Virus record (IMG/VR): IMGVR_UViG_3300023112_000033
Coordinates: 1-43,391 of that record
From: a virus
Length of the DNA: 43,391 nt
Strand: one strand, 5' to 3'
The translations under genes were made by a program, and so were the position numbers. Each line of letters begins with the position of its first letter. The stretch's first letter is position 1. Below are positions 3,536 through 16,372 of this stretch, piece by piece. The notes beneath the pieces were generated by a model. That model worked only from the letters and a program-made list of their open reading frames with translations, made no database searches and was not told where the DNA came from.

Positions 3536-4435
3536 ATGAACCAAGAGCAATCAGATTTGGAACTCACATATTCAAAGAAGCTAGTTAACCTAGCTTGGAG
3601 GAATACTAATGTTGATCCAATATTGAAACAGGAGATGATAGATAGATTAGATACCTATAGGACAGGTAGTTACTACCAATCCAAGAACGATAGATTAGAT
3701 AGCATTAACTCTGTTGATAGCTCAGATATCATTGATGAAATAATCATAGCTACAGTAGCTATCAGAGATATGTCTGTAATCCAACAAGTAATAACTAAGC
3801 TAGCTCATAAACTATTTAGTTCATTGGATCAAATACAGGCTGTTACAACAGTGATAGAAATACTCACAGTTCTATGTGAGTTTGATCTATATCACATCTA
3901 CTTCAAGGAAGATGTTAACAATAGTTTAGGTACATTAGCTATCAAATCTAATATTCCTATCTCAGCAGAGATGGAAGAATATTTGGATCAAGTTCAATAC
4001 CCATTACCAATGATATGTGAACCAAATGATTGGAATACCAACAGAGATGGTGGTTATTTACATGGATCAATTCACTGTGTACTAGGCAAAGGAAACTTCC
4101 ATGAAGAAATTCAAGCCTTAGATAGGCTTAATGAACTTCAATCAATCCCTTGGGAAATCAATCCCTACATACTTCAGTACGAGGAGAAACCGAATAAACC
4201 AGAGAAACTCAAATTACCTGAACAAGTTACCCAGTTCAAGAAACATAGCAAGAACTCAGGTAAATGTTATGCAGAAATGATAGCTAGAGGGAACAAGTTC
4301 TACTTCACTTGGAAGTTTGACAAGAGAGGTAGGGCATATTCATGTGGATATGATATCAATTTGCAGAGTTCTCAATATAAGAAAGCAGTAATTAACCTAG
4401 CCAATAAAGAGATTATACCTCTAGAGGCAATTTAA
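3536..4435 (+). CDS. N4-type RNA polymerase II, subunit 1 (N-terminal part)
   Basis: One half of a heterodimeric, T7-family single-chain RNA polymerase that in N4 (gp15 with gp16) transcribes the middle genes. This half is 299 residues, a little longer than N4 gp15. Near its C-terminus it carries the T/DxxGR motif as FDKRGRAYSCGYDINLQSSQ (about residues 260-279), which contacts the template-product hybrid. The catalytic aspartates are absent, as expected, because they lie in subunit 2. An AAGGAGA ribosome binding site precedes the ATG. The gene is followed by subunit 2 after 100 bases. The split is the normal state in N4-like phages. Confidence 0.9.
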   Translation: MNQEQSDLELTYSKKLVNLAWRNTNVDPILKQEMIDRLDTYRTGSYYQSKNDRLDSINSVDSSDIIDEIIIATVAIRDMSVIQQVITKLAHKLFSSLDQIQAVTTVIEILTVLCEFDLYHIYFKEDVNNSLGTLAIKSNIPISAEMEEYLDQVQYPLPMICEPNDWNTNRDGGYLHGSIHCVLGKGNFHEEIQALDRLNELQSIPWEINPYILQYEEKPNKPEKLKLPEQVTQFKKHSKNSGKCYAEMIARGNKFYFTWKFDKRGRAYSCGYDINLQSSQYKKAVINLANKEIIPLEAI

Positions 4436-7271: not shown

Positions 7272-7550
7272 ATGATTAATACTAATTTAAGTCCAGATCA
7301 AATGTTAGATATCTGTGGCTTTGTCACAGAGCATAAGAAGACATTTCAAGAGAATAAATTGAACTTAGGTGCTATGGCTTTGTTCTGTAATACTCACTTC
7401 GATTTTGAAGTGAAAAAACATGACATAGTATTTCTATGTGAAGCAGTAAAGATTCTATTGGATCAAAGGAACCAACCAGTAATGCATGTAGCTAAAAAGA
7501 TAATTCATGATTTACAAGGTCAAATACAGGAGTTAAAAAATGAAAGTTAA
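7272..7550 (+). CDS. Hypothetical protein, 92 aa, upstream of variable cassette A
   Basis: Unknown family, mainly helical, one central segment AMALFCNTHFDFEVKKHDIV. AAGGAAA precedes the ATG. Its last ten bases overlap the start of variable cassette A, and an AGGAG within its 3' end serves that cassette. It is not the usual upstream half of a sulfatase-modifying-factor fold, which makes the position of cassette A odd. The 180 bases before it are gene-free but can fold (GGAGGGGATT near 7116 pairs imperfectly with ATTCCCTCTCC near 7151). Confidence 0.65.
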   Translation: MINTNLSPDQMLDICGFVTEHKKTFQENKLNLGAMALFCNTHFDFEVKKHDIVFLCEAVKILLDQRNQPVMHVAKKIIHDLQGQIQELKNES

Positions 7551-7714
7551 TCCAATTAATTCTAATGGCTCTGACCATGTTATCCGAGGTGGCTCGTGGT
7601 ACGACAACGTGGGCCTCGCCAGGTCTGCTCTCCGTGGCTGGTACTTGCCAGGCCTTCGTGGCGGCAACGTTGGTGTTCGCTTAGTAAGAAAAGCAAAACA
7701 AGGAAATAAATAAT
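7541..7714 (+). CDS. Free-standing variable cassette A, C-terminal part of FGE/C-type lectin fold
   Basis: A 57-residue protein that corresponds to the last section of the formylglycine-generating-enzyme (sulfatase-modifying factor) fold: the hallmark VIRGGSWYD is followed by RSALR and GVRL. The same section is encoded at 8269 with a conserved frame (MKxNPIN, GS, RGGSWYD, RSA, R, P, R) but quite different residues between, at just the surface positions that diversity-generating retroelements vary in this fold. It has its own AGGAG ribosome binding site nine bases before the ATG. The core is strikingly poor in A and rich in G+C compared with the rest of the window. No N-terminal FGE half precedes it. 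Proposed to be an alternative or stored variant of cassette B. Confidence 0.7.
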
Positions 7715-8279
7715 GAATATTCAATCTGAAATTACAGCATTACAAGAACAAATAAACTTACTTAAAGAAAAGCAAGCTAATCAAACTCAACTACCTGACT
7801 GGAATAAAGACTTCAAAGATATTCCTATCAATATACCATTTCTTATGGGTAATACAGATGAGCATCAAGCAGTTATATTAACTAAACCATATCAAATGTG
7901 TGACCACACTGTAACAGAAAAAGAATGGTCTATAGTAATGAGCACCGTATATGCTACAAGTGAGGCTGATCTACCTAAGGTGAATATCTCTTGGAATGAC
8001 TGTCAAGAGTTCATTAAAAAGTTAAATGAATCTCAGGATGAATGGGAATATTCACTCCCTACAGAAGCTGAGTGGGAATGGGCTTGTAAAGGTGGAAGTT
8101 TATTAGAACCCAAGAATATTGATGAGGTTGCTTGGCATTATCATAACTCAGATGAAAGATTACATGAAGGAAAAGAACTAAAACCTAATGGTTTTGGTTT
8201 ATATGACATGTTAGGTAATGTCTGGGAATTCTGTCAAGACTCATACACTTCTTATAAGGATGTTAAAGATGAAAACTAA
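7713..8279 (+). CDS. FGE/sulfatase-modifying-factor-like protein, N-terminal part of a split fold
   Basis: 188 residues with a short coiled-coil start (residues 4-26) and then the FGE-type C-type lectin fold: FLMGNTDEHQAVILTKPY (about 42-59), VTEKEW, ISWNDCQEFIKKLN, the signature LPTEAEWEWACKGG (about 116-129), and GLYDMLGNVWEFCQD (about 162-176). The fold normally continues into an RGGSW segment, but this frame stops after KDEN, and that segment is supplied by the next overlapping frame at 8269. The formylglycine-forming cysteines are not evident, so it is more likely a binding protein than an enzyme. Whether it acts on the virion surface or inside the cell is unknown. Confidence 0.8.
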   Translation: MNIQSEITALQEQINLLKEKQANQTQLPDWNKDFKDIPINIPFLMGNTDEHQAVILTKPYQMCDHTVTEKEWSIVMSTVYATSEADLPKVNISWNDCQEFIKKLNESQDEWEYSLPTEAEWEWACKGGSLLEPKNIDEVAWHYHNSDERLHEGKELKPNGFGLYDMLGNVWEFCQDSYTSYKDVKDEN

Positions 8280-8436
8280 CCCAATTAATACTAGCGGCTC
8301 TCGCCGTGTTAACCGAGGTGGCTCGTGGTACGACTATGCGAGCAGCAGCCGGTCAGCGTATCGTAACCTCTTCTCGCCTGACTATCGTAGCTACGGTTTA
8401 GGGTTCCGTTTGCGCAGGAGAAAGAAAAATGACTAA
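8269..8436 (+). CDS. Variable cassette B, C-terminal part of split FGE/C-type lectin fold
   Basis: 55 residues: MKTNPIN, RVNRGGSWYD, RSAYR, SPDYR, GLGFRL. This is the canonical end of the FGE fold that the upstream protein lacks. It overlaps that gene by 11 bases in another frame and has an AAGGA ribosome binding site nine bases before its ATG, inside the upstream gene. The intact SD and start, and the same arrangement at cassette A, suggest a genuine two-polypeptide protein rather than a chance frameshift. Varied codons between A and B mostly keep a pyrimidine third base (for example GGC/AGC, CTC/AGC, GGC/AAC, GGC/GAC), the footprint expected from adenine mutagenesis of AAC codons. Confidence 0.75.
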   Translation: MKTNPINTSGSRRVNRGGSWYDYASSSRSAYRNLFSPDYRSYGLGFRLRRRKKND

Positions 8437-8680
8437 AATAAATGAAGGCGTAATCAGTGAGGATGTCCAGAGAGTATTTAATGCTGTAAGTGAAACATTA
8501 GCTAAATTAGATATTAGATTACTAGAAGGTAATCTTGGGTTAATGTTAATAATAATGACTGTCTTAACAGAAGTAGGTTTGAATGAAAAACAACGCTGGA
8601 AATATATAAAAGACTTATATGATCCACTTGTTGGAGCTACAGTGGAGGAGGAATTGGATAATGAAAAGAAAGAAAAATGA
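8429..8680 (+). CDS. Hypothetical protein, 83 aa
   Basis: Unknown family. A hydrophobic central helix (LGLMLIIMTVLTEVG) is followed by a charged helix and an acidic-basic tail. It overlaps the end of cassette B by eight bases (ATGACTAA) and its own stop overlaps the next start (ATGA). It resembles the protein at 6332 in layout and may be a paralogue; both lie beside the FGE cassettes' neighbourhood. Confidence 0.65.
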   Translation: MTKINEGVISEDVQRVFNAVSETLAKLDIRLLEGNLGLMLIIMTVLTEVGLNEKQRWKYIKDLYDPLVGATVEEELDNEKKEK

Positions 8681-8823: not shown

Positions 8824-9492
8824 ATGATTAAAGTATTAAATGAAGGGCATGTACAACTCATAGATCATATGGGTAGTGATTTAGCTATAAGTAGGAATGC
8901 GAGAGTATCATACGCTGCAGAATGGAGAGCAGGTGAAGCAGATACTAAATTAATTAATTATTTATATAATGCAGGGCATAACACGCCATTTGAGGCAGTG
9001 ACATTCACATTTGATGTGAAAGCACCTATCTTTGTCTTACGCCAATGGCATAGACATAGAACCCAATCATACAATGAATTGAGTGCTCGATATAAAGAAC
9101 TTCCAGAAGAATTCTTCATACCTGAACTTGATACTATTACATTTCAGCATCCTGACAATAAACAAATGAGGACTGATGAACAGAATCCTAATGCACAGCA
9201 GATTCAAGATTTAATTGTTGGTTCAAACAAATCATCATTCATTATATACCATGAATTAATTAAACTAGGTTGTCCTAGAGAACTAGCAAGATCAATTCTA
9301 CCAGTAGGAACTTATTCACACATGTTCTGTACTCTTAACTTAAATAACTTATTTAAATTCTTACATGAGAGGTGTCATTATCATGCACAGTATGAGATCC
9401 AAGTATATGCTAACGCTATGCTTGAGTTGGTAAAACCAATAGTACCAGTGGCAATGAAATGCTTTGAAGATAACTTTGATTTTAAGAGGTAA
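8824..9492 (+). CDS. thyX: Flavin-dependent thymidylate synthase
   Basis: Makes dTMP from dUMP with FAD, NADPH and methylene-tetrahydrofolate. The 222-residue protein has the ThyX signature RHRTQSYNELSARY (from about residue 77; consensus RHRxxSxNExSxRY) and a full family length, with the second conserved block CPRELARSILPVGTYS. It works with the dUTPase at 6661. It lies in a tight run of small genes and is probably made early to middle. Confidence 0.95.
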   Translation: MIKVLNEGHVQLIDHMGSDLAISRNARVSYAAEWRAGEADTKLINYLYNAGHNTPFEAVTFTFDVKAPIFVLRQWHRHRTQSYNELSARYKELPEEFFIPELDTITFQHPDNKQMRTDEQNPNAQQIQDLIVGSNKSSFIIYHELIKLGCPRELARSILPVGTYSHMFCTLNLNNLFKFLHERCHYHAQYEIQVYANAMLELVKPIVPVAMKCFEDNFDFKR

Positions 9493-9497
9493 GACTA

Positions 9498-9722
9498 ATG
9501 GGCGATGGCACATTTGGATTAACAATAATCCTATCTATTCTATTAATAGTTACAGGTTCTTTAAATAGTGTAGAAATTAATCAGAAAGAATTAACTTCAA
9601 TAACTACTGAATGTAAGTCAGGAATATACTCAGTGGAAGTGAACCAAGGATTTAAATTTTCAAATAAAATAATACTTTCCTGTAAGGATGGTACTGAAAT
9701 TAATTTAAATGGGGGTAAATAA
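9498..9722 (+). CDS. Small membrane-anchored or secreted protein, 74 aa
   Basis: Residues 6-24 (FGLTIILSILLIVTGSLNS) form a single hydrophobic helix resembling a signal anchor; the remainder is a soluble region with two cysteines that could pair in the periplasm. No lipobox cysteine follows the helix. The stop overlaps the next start. Function unknown; superinfection exclusion is one possibility for such phage proteins, but no direct evidence exists. Confidence 0.65.
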   Translation: MGDGTFGLTIILSILLIVTGSLNSVEINQKELTSITTECKSGIYSVEVNQGFKFSNKIILSCKDGTEINLNGGK

Positions 9723-15910: not shown

Positions 15911-16102
15911 ATGAGTAATACTAGAAGAGGTAATAAGCCTCCTGGACTAGATTTCTGGTCTAAATATAGGTGTAATAGACATGGTGCTTCAGGTTGTGGG
16001 AGAGTAGCTAAAGGATTAGCTAGATCTGAGCGAAGAAATACTAGTAAACATATTATTAAGGAAGAACTTAAAGATTTAATCAATTACACAGCTATTGTCT
16101 AG
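15911..16102 (+). CDS. Conserved small basic phage protein, 63 aa
   Basis: MSNTRRGNKPPGLDFWSKYR is like a small phage protein family with a GxDFWSRRP-type motif; the rest is basic (RVAKGLARSERRN). Function unknown. Its last 15 bases lie inside the tRNA-Glu gene, so the stop codon is formed by the D arm of the tRNA. Confidence 0.6.
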   Translation: MSNTRRGNKPPGLDFWSKYRCNRHGASGCGRVAKGLARSERRNTSKHIIKEELKDLINYTAIV

Positions 16103-16159
16103 TGGTTAGGGCAGATCACTTTCTATGATCTAACAGGAGTTCGATTCTTCTTAGCTGTA
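16088..16159 (+). tRNA. tRNA-Glu (anticodon UUC)
   Basis: Full cloverleaf: acceptor ACAGCTA/TAGCTGT, anticodon stem GATCA/TGATC with loop CTTTCTA (anticodon TTC, reads GAA/GAG), T arm AGGAG-TTCGATT-CTTCT. It has the GTCTAG..TAACAGGxGTTCGA pattern of bacterial tRNA-Glu. CCA is not encoded (ATCA follows). It probably supports translation of the AT-rich phage genes. Confidence 0.9.
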
Positions 16160-16298: not shown

Positions 16299-16372
16299 AG
16301 CAGTATGGTCGAATGGTTAGACATGGGACTTTGACTCCCATTACGTAGGTTCAATTCCTACTACTGCTTCCA
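16299..16372 (+). tRNA. tRNA-Gln (anticodon UUG)
   Basis: Full cloverleaf: acceptor AGCAGTA/TACTGCT, anticodon stem TGGGA/TCCCA with loop CTTTGAC (anticodon TTG, reads CAA), T arm GTAGG-TTCAATT-CCTAC, and CCA encoded at the end (16370-16372). Confidence 0.92.

Follow-up and report, generated by a model that had tools for sequence, protein, structure and literature searches.

Two loose C-type lectin cassettes of probable DGR origin in an N4-like phage fragment without a reverse transcriptase match

Two short open reading frames (ORFs) of an AT-rich phage contig, here called cassettes A and B, contain cores that are rich in G and C and poor in A. The question raised by this locus is whether these cores are products of DGR adenine mutagenesis and, if so, whose reverse transcriptase (RT) and template would have produced them. 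The viral contig analysed (the window) measures 43,391 bases and has 33% GC and 36% A. It was assigned to the N4-like phages (Schitoviridae) on the joint presence of a giant virion RNA polymerase (vRNAP; phrog_2206, E=3e-250; 2,908 aa, encoded on the minus strand), an N4-like RNA polymerase (phrog_2051, E=2e-102) and a primase (phrog_2135, E=3e-301), and a DNA polymerase family is also represented among its proteins. The vRNAP gene sits at the end of the window, and no terminase, portal or capsid was found among the identified and examined window proteins. Since no structural gene was identified and the related vRNAPs belong to genomes of 67-77 kb, the structural half of the phage genome, 20-30 kb, is probably absent from the fragment. 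Close relatives of the fragment were not found among the viral contigs or phage records searched. The window also carries tRNA-Glu (TTC) at 16088-16159 and tRNA-Gln (TTG) at 16299-16372, and its phrog_1735 protein has a 671-aa relative, 45% identical, in a genome of the Parabeggiatoa order (L106, G420:C275), on a contig that holds an aldehyde dehydrogenase gene as well.

The locus extends from 7272 to 8680 and is composed as listed below, where template-N positions are the 13 codons that are AAC in real FGE-type DGR template repeats; the ribosome-binding-like sites of cassette A and of the ORF after it, as well as the TAATG overlap, were recognized by sequence inspection, as was the site preceding cassette B.

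7272..7550, plus strand: upstream ORF, 92 aa; its stop (7548-7550) gives an 11-nt overlap with the start of cassette A
7528..7532, plus strand: AGGAG, ribosome-binding-like site for cassette A
7540..7713, plus strand: cassette A, stand-alone ORF, 57 aa; C-terminal end of an FGE/C-type lectin, PF03781 profile 206-255
7585..7680, plus strand: variable-region core of cassette A, codons 16-47; 66% GC, 11/13 NNC at template-N positions
7700..7704, plus strand: AAGGA in the tail of cassette A, ribosome-binding-like, for the next ORF
7711-7715, plus strand: TAATG stop/start overlap from cassette A to the FGE N-part
7713..8279, plus strand: FGE N-part ORF, 188 aa; PF03781 profile 70-196; composition ordinary, AT-rich
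8256..8260, plus strand: AAGGA, ribosome-binding-like site for cassette B
8269..8436, plus strand: cassette B ORF, 55 aa; PF03781 profile 207-253
8314..8409, plus strand: variable-region core of cassette B, codons 16-47; 8/13 NNC and 12/13 NNY at template-N positions
8429..8680, plus strand: next ORF, 83 aa, overlapping the end of cassette B and preceded by AGGAG (8416-8420)

Judged by the Pfam profile, what each cassette encodes is limited to the last 45-50 residues at the C-terminus of an FGE-type C-type lectin. The ORF for the remaining FGE domain lies between the two, and the three ORFs are arranged head to tail. Cassette B overlaps the N-part by 11 nt, in the +1 frame with respect to it, and the start geometry ATGAAANNTAA is common to this overlap and to that between cassette A and the upstream ORF. 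When read through the frame shift, the N-part and cassette B make up a complete FGE-type lectin domain that keeps every invariant column in alignment with complete FGE proteins. This joined protein is 40% identical to the target protein of L026, a genuine DGR of a virus in which RT and template lie next to the target, and the best PDB match is 2y3c, a Treponema DGR variable protein (E=2.7e-56). The variable core is located at the C-terminal end of the C-type lectin (FGE) domain, as DGR variable regions are, and it aligns with DGR targets. An AlphaFold model of the N-part with cassette B reached a pLDDT of 65 and, since the variable part stayed below 50, did not serve for a fold search. The pieces may be separate products that assemble or may be joined by a frameshift, or an indel may have divided the gene, and we consider the chances even that the variable ends pair with the FGE scaffold. 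Among viral proteins, one scan returned a single distant intact FGE (L003) and another returned no FGE relative.

The preliminary description of this DNA, in which A and B were not recognized as detached C-terminal ends of one protein, reported a GC-rich, adenine-poor core in cassette A, and this was borne out: positions 7584-7680 are 66% GC and 10% A, compared to 33% and 36% in the window. This is the most extreme 97-mer of the window for both GC and A, with cassette B (16-17% A) second on both, and it lies beyond every one of 100 simulated first-order Markov genomes (maximum 97-mer GC 0.55, minimum A 0.155). The core is sharply bounded by a head of 30% GC and a tail of 21% GC, both with ordinary codon use. 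Conditional on the amino acids and the codon use of this genome, 2.3 NNC codons are expected in the core of A and 15 of 32 are observed (p=2e-11); the corresponding figures for B are 3.9 and 13 of 32 (p=9e-6), and no 32-codon stretch in the other genes tested contains more than 10. At the template-N positions the 11 NNC codons of A compare with 1.6 expected (p=1.6e-10), and the 8 of B with 2.6 (p=9e-4), whereas NNC makes up only 4/19 of the core of A outside these positions. The excess is absent from the head of A (p=0.31) and mild in the head of B (p=0.01). Both cassettes thus combine NNC or NNY codons at template-N positions with adenine depletion, as found in DGR variable regions. Moreover, AAC with both adenines randomised becomes NNC, with a mean of 67% GC, which matches the GC content of the core of A.

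These data also bear on the explanation that no DGR was involved, and that the cassettes are pieces of an ordinary FGE-sulfatase gene from a GC-rich bacterium. Such a donor would raise GC3, and by Pfam match RGGSW...R.A.R...GFR is common in non-DGR FGE proteins as well. However, GC is raised in the core only, and not in the head or tail of A or in the N-part, and the NNC excess falls on the template-N positions. In catalytic FGEs the active-site cysteine pair is found in the C-terminal motif, and there is no cysteine in either cassette A (P0001) or cassette B (P0003). We therefore regard an ordinary FGE gene as a very improbable source.

It had further been claimed that most codon replacements between A and B affect the first two positions and leave a C or T at the end. 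The cited examples are real, but across the 96-nt core there are 14 first-, 12 second- and 11 third-position differences, and adenine is present in either copy at only 18 of the 37 differing sites. Because of these third-position differences and the low number of adenine sites, the A/B comparison alone is insufficient as an argument for adenine mutagenesis from one template, and the evidence for such mutagenesis rests on template-N codon use and on external template/variable pairs. We rejected a single template as a sufficient source of both cassettes: codons for S, A, P, G, F and R are also among those with the 11 third-position differences, and one template without further change would need A at many third positions. 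Consequently, two templates or later drift are needed. Differences of this kind are also what drifting copies would show, and would agree with cassettes that derive from a single capture out of a bacterial DGR target gene and are now fixed, the split being decay or a sequencing indel. On the other hand, the cores show no drift towards the 33% GC of the genome, and both ORFs have stayed open and have SD-like sites and a shared start geometry.

External support came from known DGRs. The letters common to A and B, GGTGGCTCGTGG, led to bacterial template/variable pairs that belong to genuine DGRs and mismatch at adenines only. A search of genome_contigs for the 5' core letters shared by both cassettes gave 25 sites, where we estimate that about 4 would be expected by chance; most are AAC-rich DGR templates, and the taxa include Cyanobacteria, Chloroflexi, Bacteroidetes, Verrucomicrobia and Beggiatoaceae. 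Ten of these sites had a variable copy nearby with adenine-only mismatches. When viral contigs were scanned with RGGSWNNN coded with AAC, the template/variable pairs L022, L023, L025 and L026 were found, again with 0-1 non-adenine mismatches, as was seen in 13 compared templates that have a variable partner (ten of them from the genome_contigs scan). The mean non-A mismatch to non-cognate templates was 0.33 for A and 0.31 for B, compared to 0.43 for the ordinary FGE L003, and by this distance A and B fall among variable regions. The pattern GGTGGCTCGTGGNNCNNC had 21 matches in the ten genomes followed up and its reversed control had 0, a control that should be taken to inform on specificity only, since these genomes were picked for already holding one match. 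Motif sites occur mainly in bacterial genomes, and two viral_contigs scans with similar but not identical patterns gave 1 real case, a distribution that points to a source outside the phage. Among the sites seen, Beggiatoales variable regions are nearest to A and B; we draw no conclusion about the host from this, as the group was searched more heavily. Treponema denticola TvpA (2y3c) and the L026 target share with A and B the same domain, the RGGSW...GFR core and NNC at template-N positions. The L026 target, however, is a single protein beside RT and template, whereas the phage cassettes are separate mini-ORFs in two copies, in a fragment with neither. Taken together, the codon use, GGTGGCTCGTGG and 2y3c uphold the earlier proposal that the cassettes originated by adenine mutagenesis, although not from one common template, and we infer with high confidence that both are of DGR origin.

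The reported lack of RT and template in the window was confirmed, as there was no PF00078 match, no tblastn match with six DGR RTs and no template repeat; four true viral DGRs do give RT matches in the same test. In a repeat search of the window A and B match only each other, with no third copy. Hence the fragment contains neither an RT nor a repeat that matches except at adenines, and we regard A and B as DGR variable regions outside any complete DGR. This absence is weak evidence about the phage, since genomes of this type usually measure 67-77 kb and the window covers 43 kb. The repeat matching the cassettes except at adenines that the preliminary description led us to look for in phage and host did not turn up in the window, or in the bacterial genomes and viral contigs searched. 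Searches of 84,980 genomes (one motif scanned), 369 Gammaproteobacteria genomes and 42 genomes from the order of Parabeggiatoa yielded no template for either cassette, and pattern scans of viral_contigs gave chance matches or none. Among the templates that were found, the best has 12 non-adenine mismatches in 63 to A, and 17 non-A mismatches to B. Short matches of the whole window in the Gammaproteobacteria and Parabeggiatoa-order genomes were the conserved FGE motif, repeats, or isolated, and no CRISPR-like array surrounded those inspected. That no template was found would also suit cassettes fixed since a single capture.

Alternatively, the phage may have an ordinary DGR of its own, whose RT and template are located in the part of the N4-like genome absent from the fragment and which rewrites A and B as remote targets. 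The position of vRNAP at the window end, the lack of an identified terminase, portal or capsid gene and the 20-30 kb that are probably missing all leave room for it, and DGR-like reverse transcriptases are common in phages (166-172 records). However, the literature searched, with incomplete coverage, reports no N4-like phage with a DGR, and related viral contigs are all without an RT match. Three other viral contigs, G433, G437 and G438, resemble the phage fragment in carrying several loose or split RGGSW cassettes (six, four and six, respectively), and none has an RT match where the four true viral DGRs are positive; they differ from it in GC content (57-63%) and in being other phage types. 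As these contigs have no end repeats, and the G437 units lie at the contig edge, host flank or missing parts are possible.

In G433 (IMGVR_UViG_3300037851_000413; L120/L124), the only viral contig with real cassettes under the relaxed motif, six RGGSW...GFR cassettes surround an FGE N-domain ORF that ends in GNVWEWCDE; the whole array lies at reverse-complement coordinates 8724-10900 of L120. Adjacent cassettes are overlapping mini-ORFs with ATGA-type stop/start couplings, a cassette end carries the ribosome-binding-like GAGGTG of the next cassette, and four cassettes differ mainly at codon positions 1 and 2. G437 (L129-L132) measures 66.9 kb and comes from a tailed phage, with genes for terminase and tape measure. 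It holds two N-domain units (minus-strand coordinates 64381 and 65480) that are 86% identical over 878 nt including cassettes, and in each, only a -1 shift at the heptamer GGGAAAG (read GGA AAG in the zero frame) leads into the first cassette; the second follows in the original (zero) frame, so that a frameshift could possibly choose between two variable ends. G438 (L133-L134), likewise from a tailed phage and with terminase and ribonucleotide reductase genes, has its six cassettes in three ORFs (3810-4334, 8844-9722 and 9719-10348 in L133), three of them in tandem; the tandem RGGSW cassettes stand at ORF starts and the ORFs run on into other sequence. One cassette of G438 is still template-like (NNN-rich), and an N-domain was not seen beside the cassettes. 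The recurrence of split or loose cassettes in unrelated contigs also argues against decay of a captured gene or a sequencing indel as the source of the split.

A complete genome was available in LMM01, a Microcystis phage with a circular genome of 162,109 b, in which we found no DGR RT match and no template for its two FGE genes. With this genome and the three contigs, one of them 66.9 kb, all lacking an RT, we consider it unlikely that the N4-like phage brings its own DGR. The FGE lectins of Fukuivirus (LMM01 and MaMV-DC; gp037/ORF40 and gp062/ORF63, L135/L137) have C-termini that differ between isolates mostly at codon positions 1 and 2 in phages without RT (checked for LMM01); unlike the N4-like locus, they are single intact ORFs and unsplit. 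Some of these lectins are annotated as kinases. Between LMM01 gp037 and its MaMV-DC ortholog (ORF40), the last 300 nt of the N part are 93% identical, with 4/3/14 differences at codon positions 1/2/3, whereas the variable part is 78% identical, with 9/8/5 differences (Fisher p=0.004). We rely on gp037, for which ortholog lengths agree, rather than on gp062, since gp062 and its ortholog (ORF63) differ by 3 nt in length and an ungapped comparison is unreliable. Judged from these sequences, the gp037 pattern is compatible with adenine-type rewriting, or with an exchange in which the phage receives such sequences from elsewhere; selection acting for amino-acid change alone accounts for it less well. 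Three Chinese isolates of Microcystis phages have identical orthologous variable parts, in line with fixed cassettes. Given the intact ORFs, the undrifted cores and the recurrent splitting, we nevertheless find it doubtful that A and B are fossils.

The explanation we prefer, and to which we give about an even chance, is that A and B are variable regions of DGR type which came from a DGR located elsewhere, probably in the host, or were rewritten by it. AAC-rich templates would have passed through adenine-specific mutagenic reverse transcription and left NNC codons in A and B, each of which would form the ligand-facing C-terminus of an FGE-type C-type lectin, cut loose as a coupled mini-ORF beside the ORF for the rest of the fold. 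RT and template would most likely belong to a DGR of the host cell, which may rewrite the phage copies in trans during infection or may have rewritten them before the phage acquired them. That the source lies outside the phage, acting in trans now or captured already rewritten, seems to us slightly the better bet. There are precedents for variable regions away from the DGR that rewrites them, in FGE/CLec domains: in Thiohalocapsa PB-PSB1, a DGR is reported to rewrite targets in trans at other sites of its genome, and these targets are proposed sensors in anti-phage systems (PMC10907252), and in cyanobacteria dispersed CLec paralogs are DGR targets (PMC7517822). Those targets are part of the bacterial genome itself, whereas A and B are in a phage and no template was identified for them. 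DGR surveys seek variable regions next to RT and so miss remote targets (PMC8144416), and targets such as A and B would be missed by them for that reason; in the literature searched, with incomplete coverage, no RT-less phage cassette arrays are reported.

The protein, which is encoded outside the structural genes, would probably serve in diversified binding, and with variable ends on loose coupled mini-ORFs one scaffold could pair with more than one of them. The loose ends might serve as binding proteins, or interfere with DGR-diversified sensors of the host. It is a tentative and rather unlikely extension of this reasoning that several phage lineages maintain RT-less arrays of loose cassettes that are either coupled to a common lectin scaffold or out of frame with it, rewritten in trans by host DGRs during infection and possibly directed against such sensors.

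In conclusion, if RT-less phages carry host-rewritten cassettes, DGRs would extend further than is known, with a single mutation machine serving both phage and host. Splitting the lectin in this way would also be a new use of variability, with one scaffold and interchangeable variable ends. The in-trans claim is directly testable, since cultured RT-less Microcystis phages show the same kind of variation.
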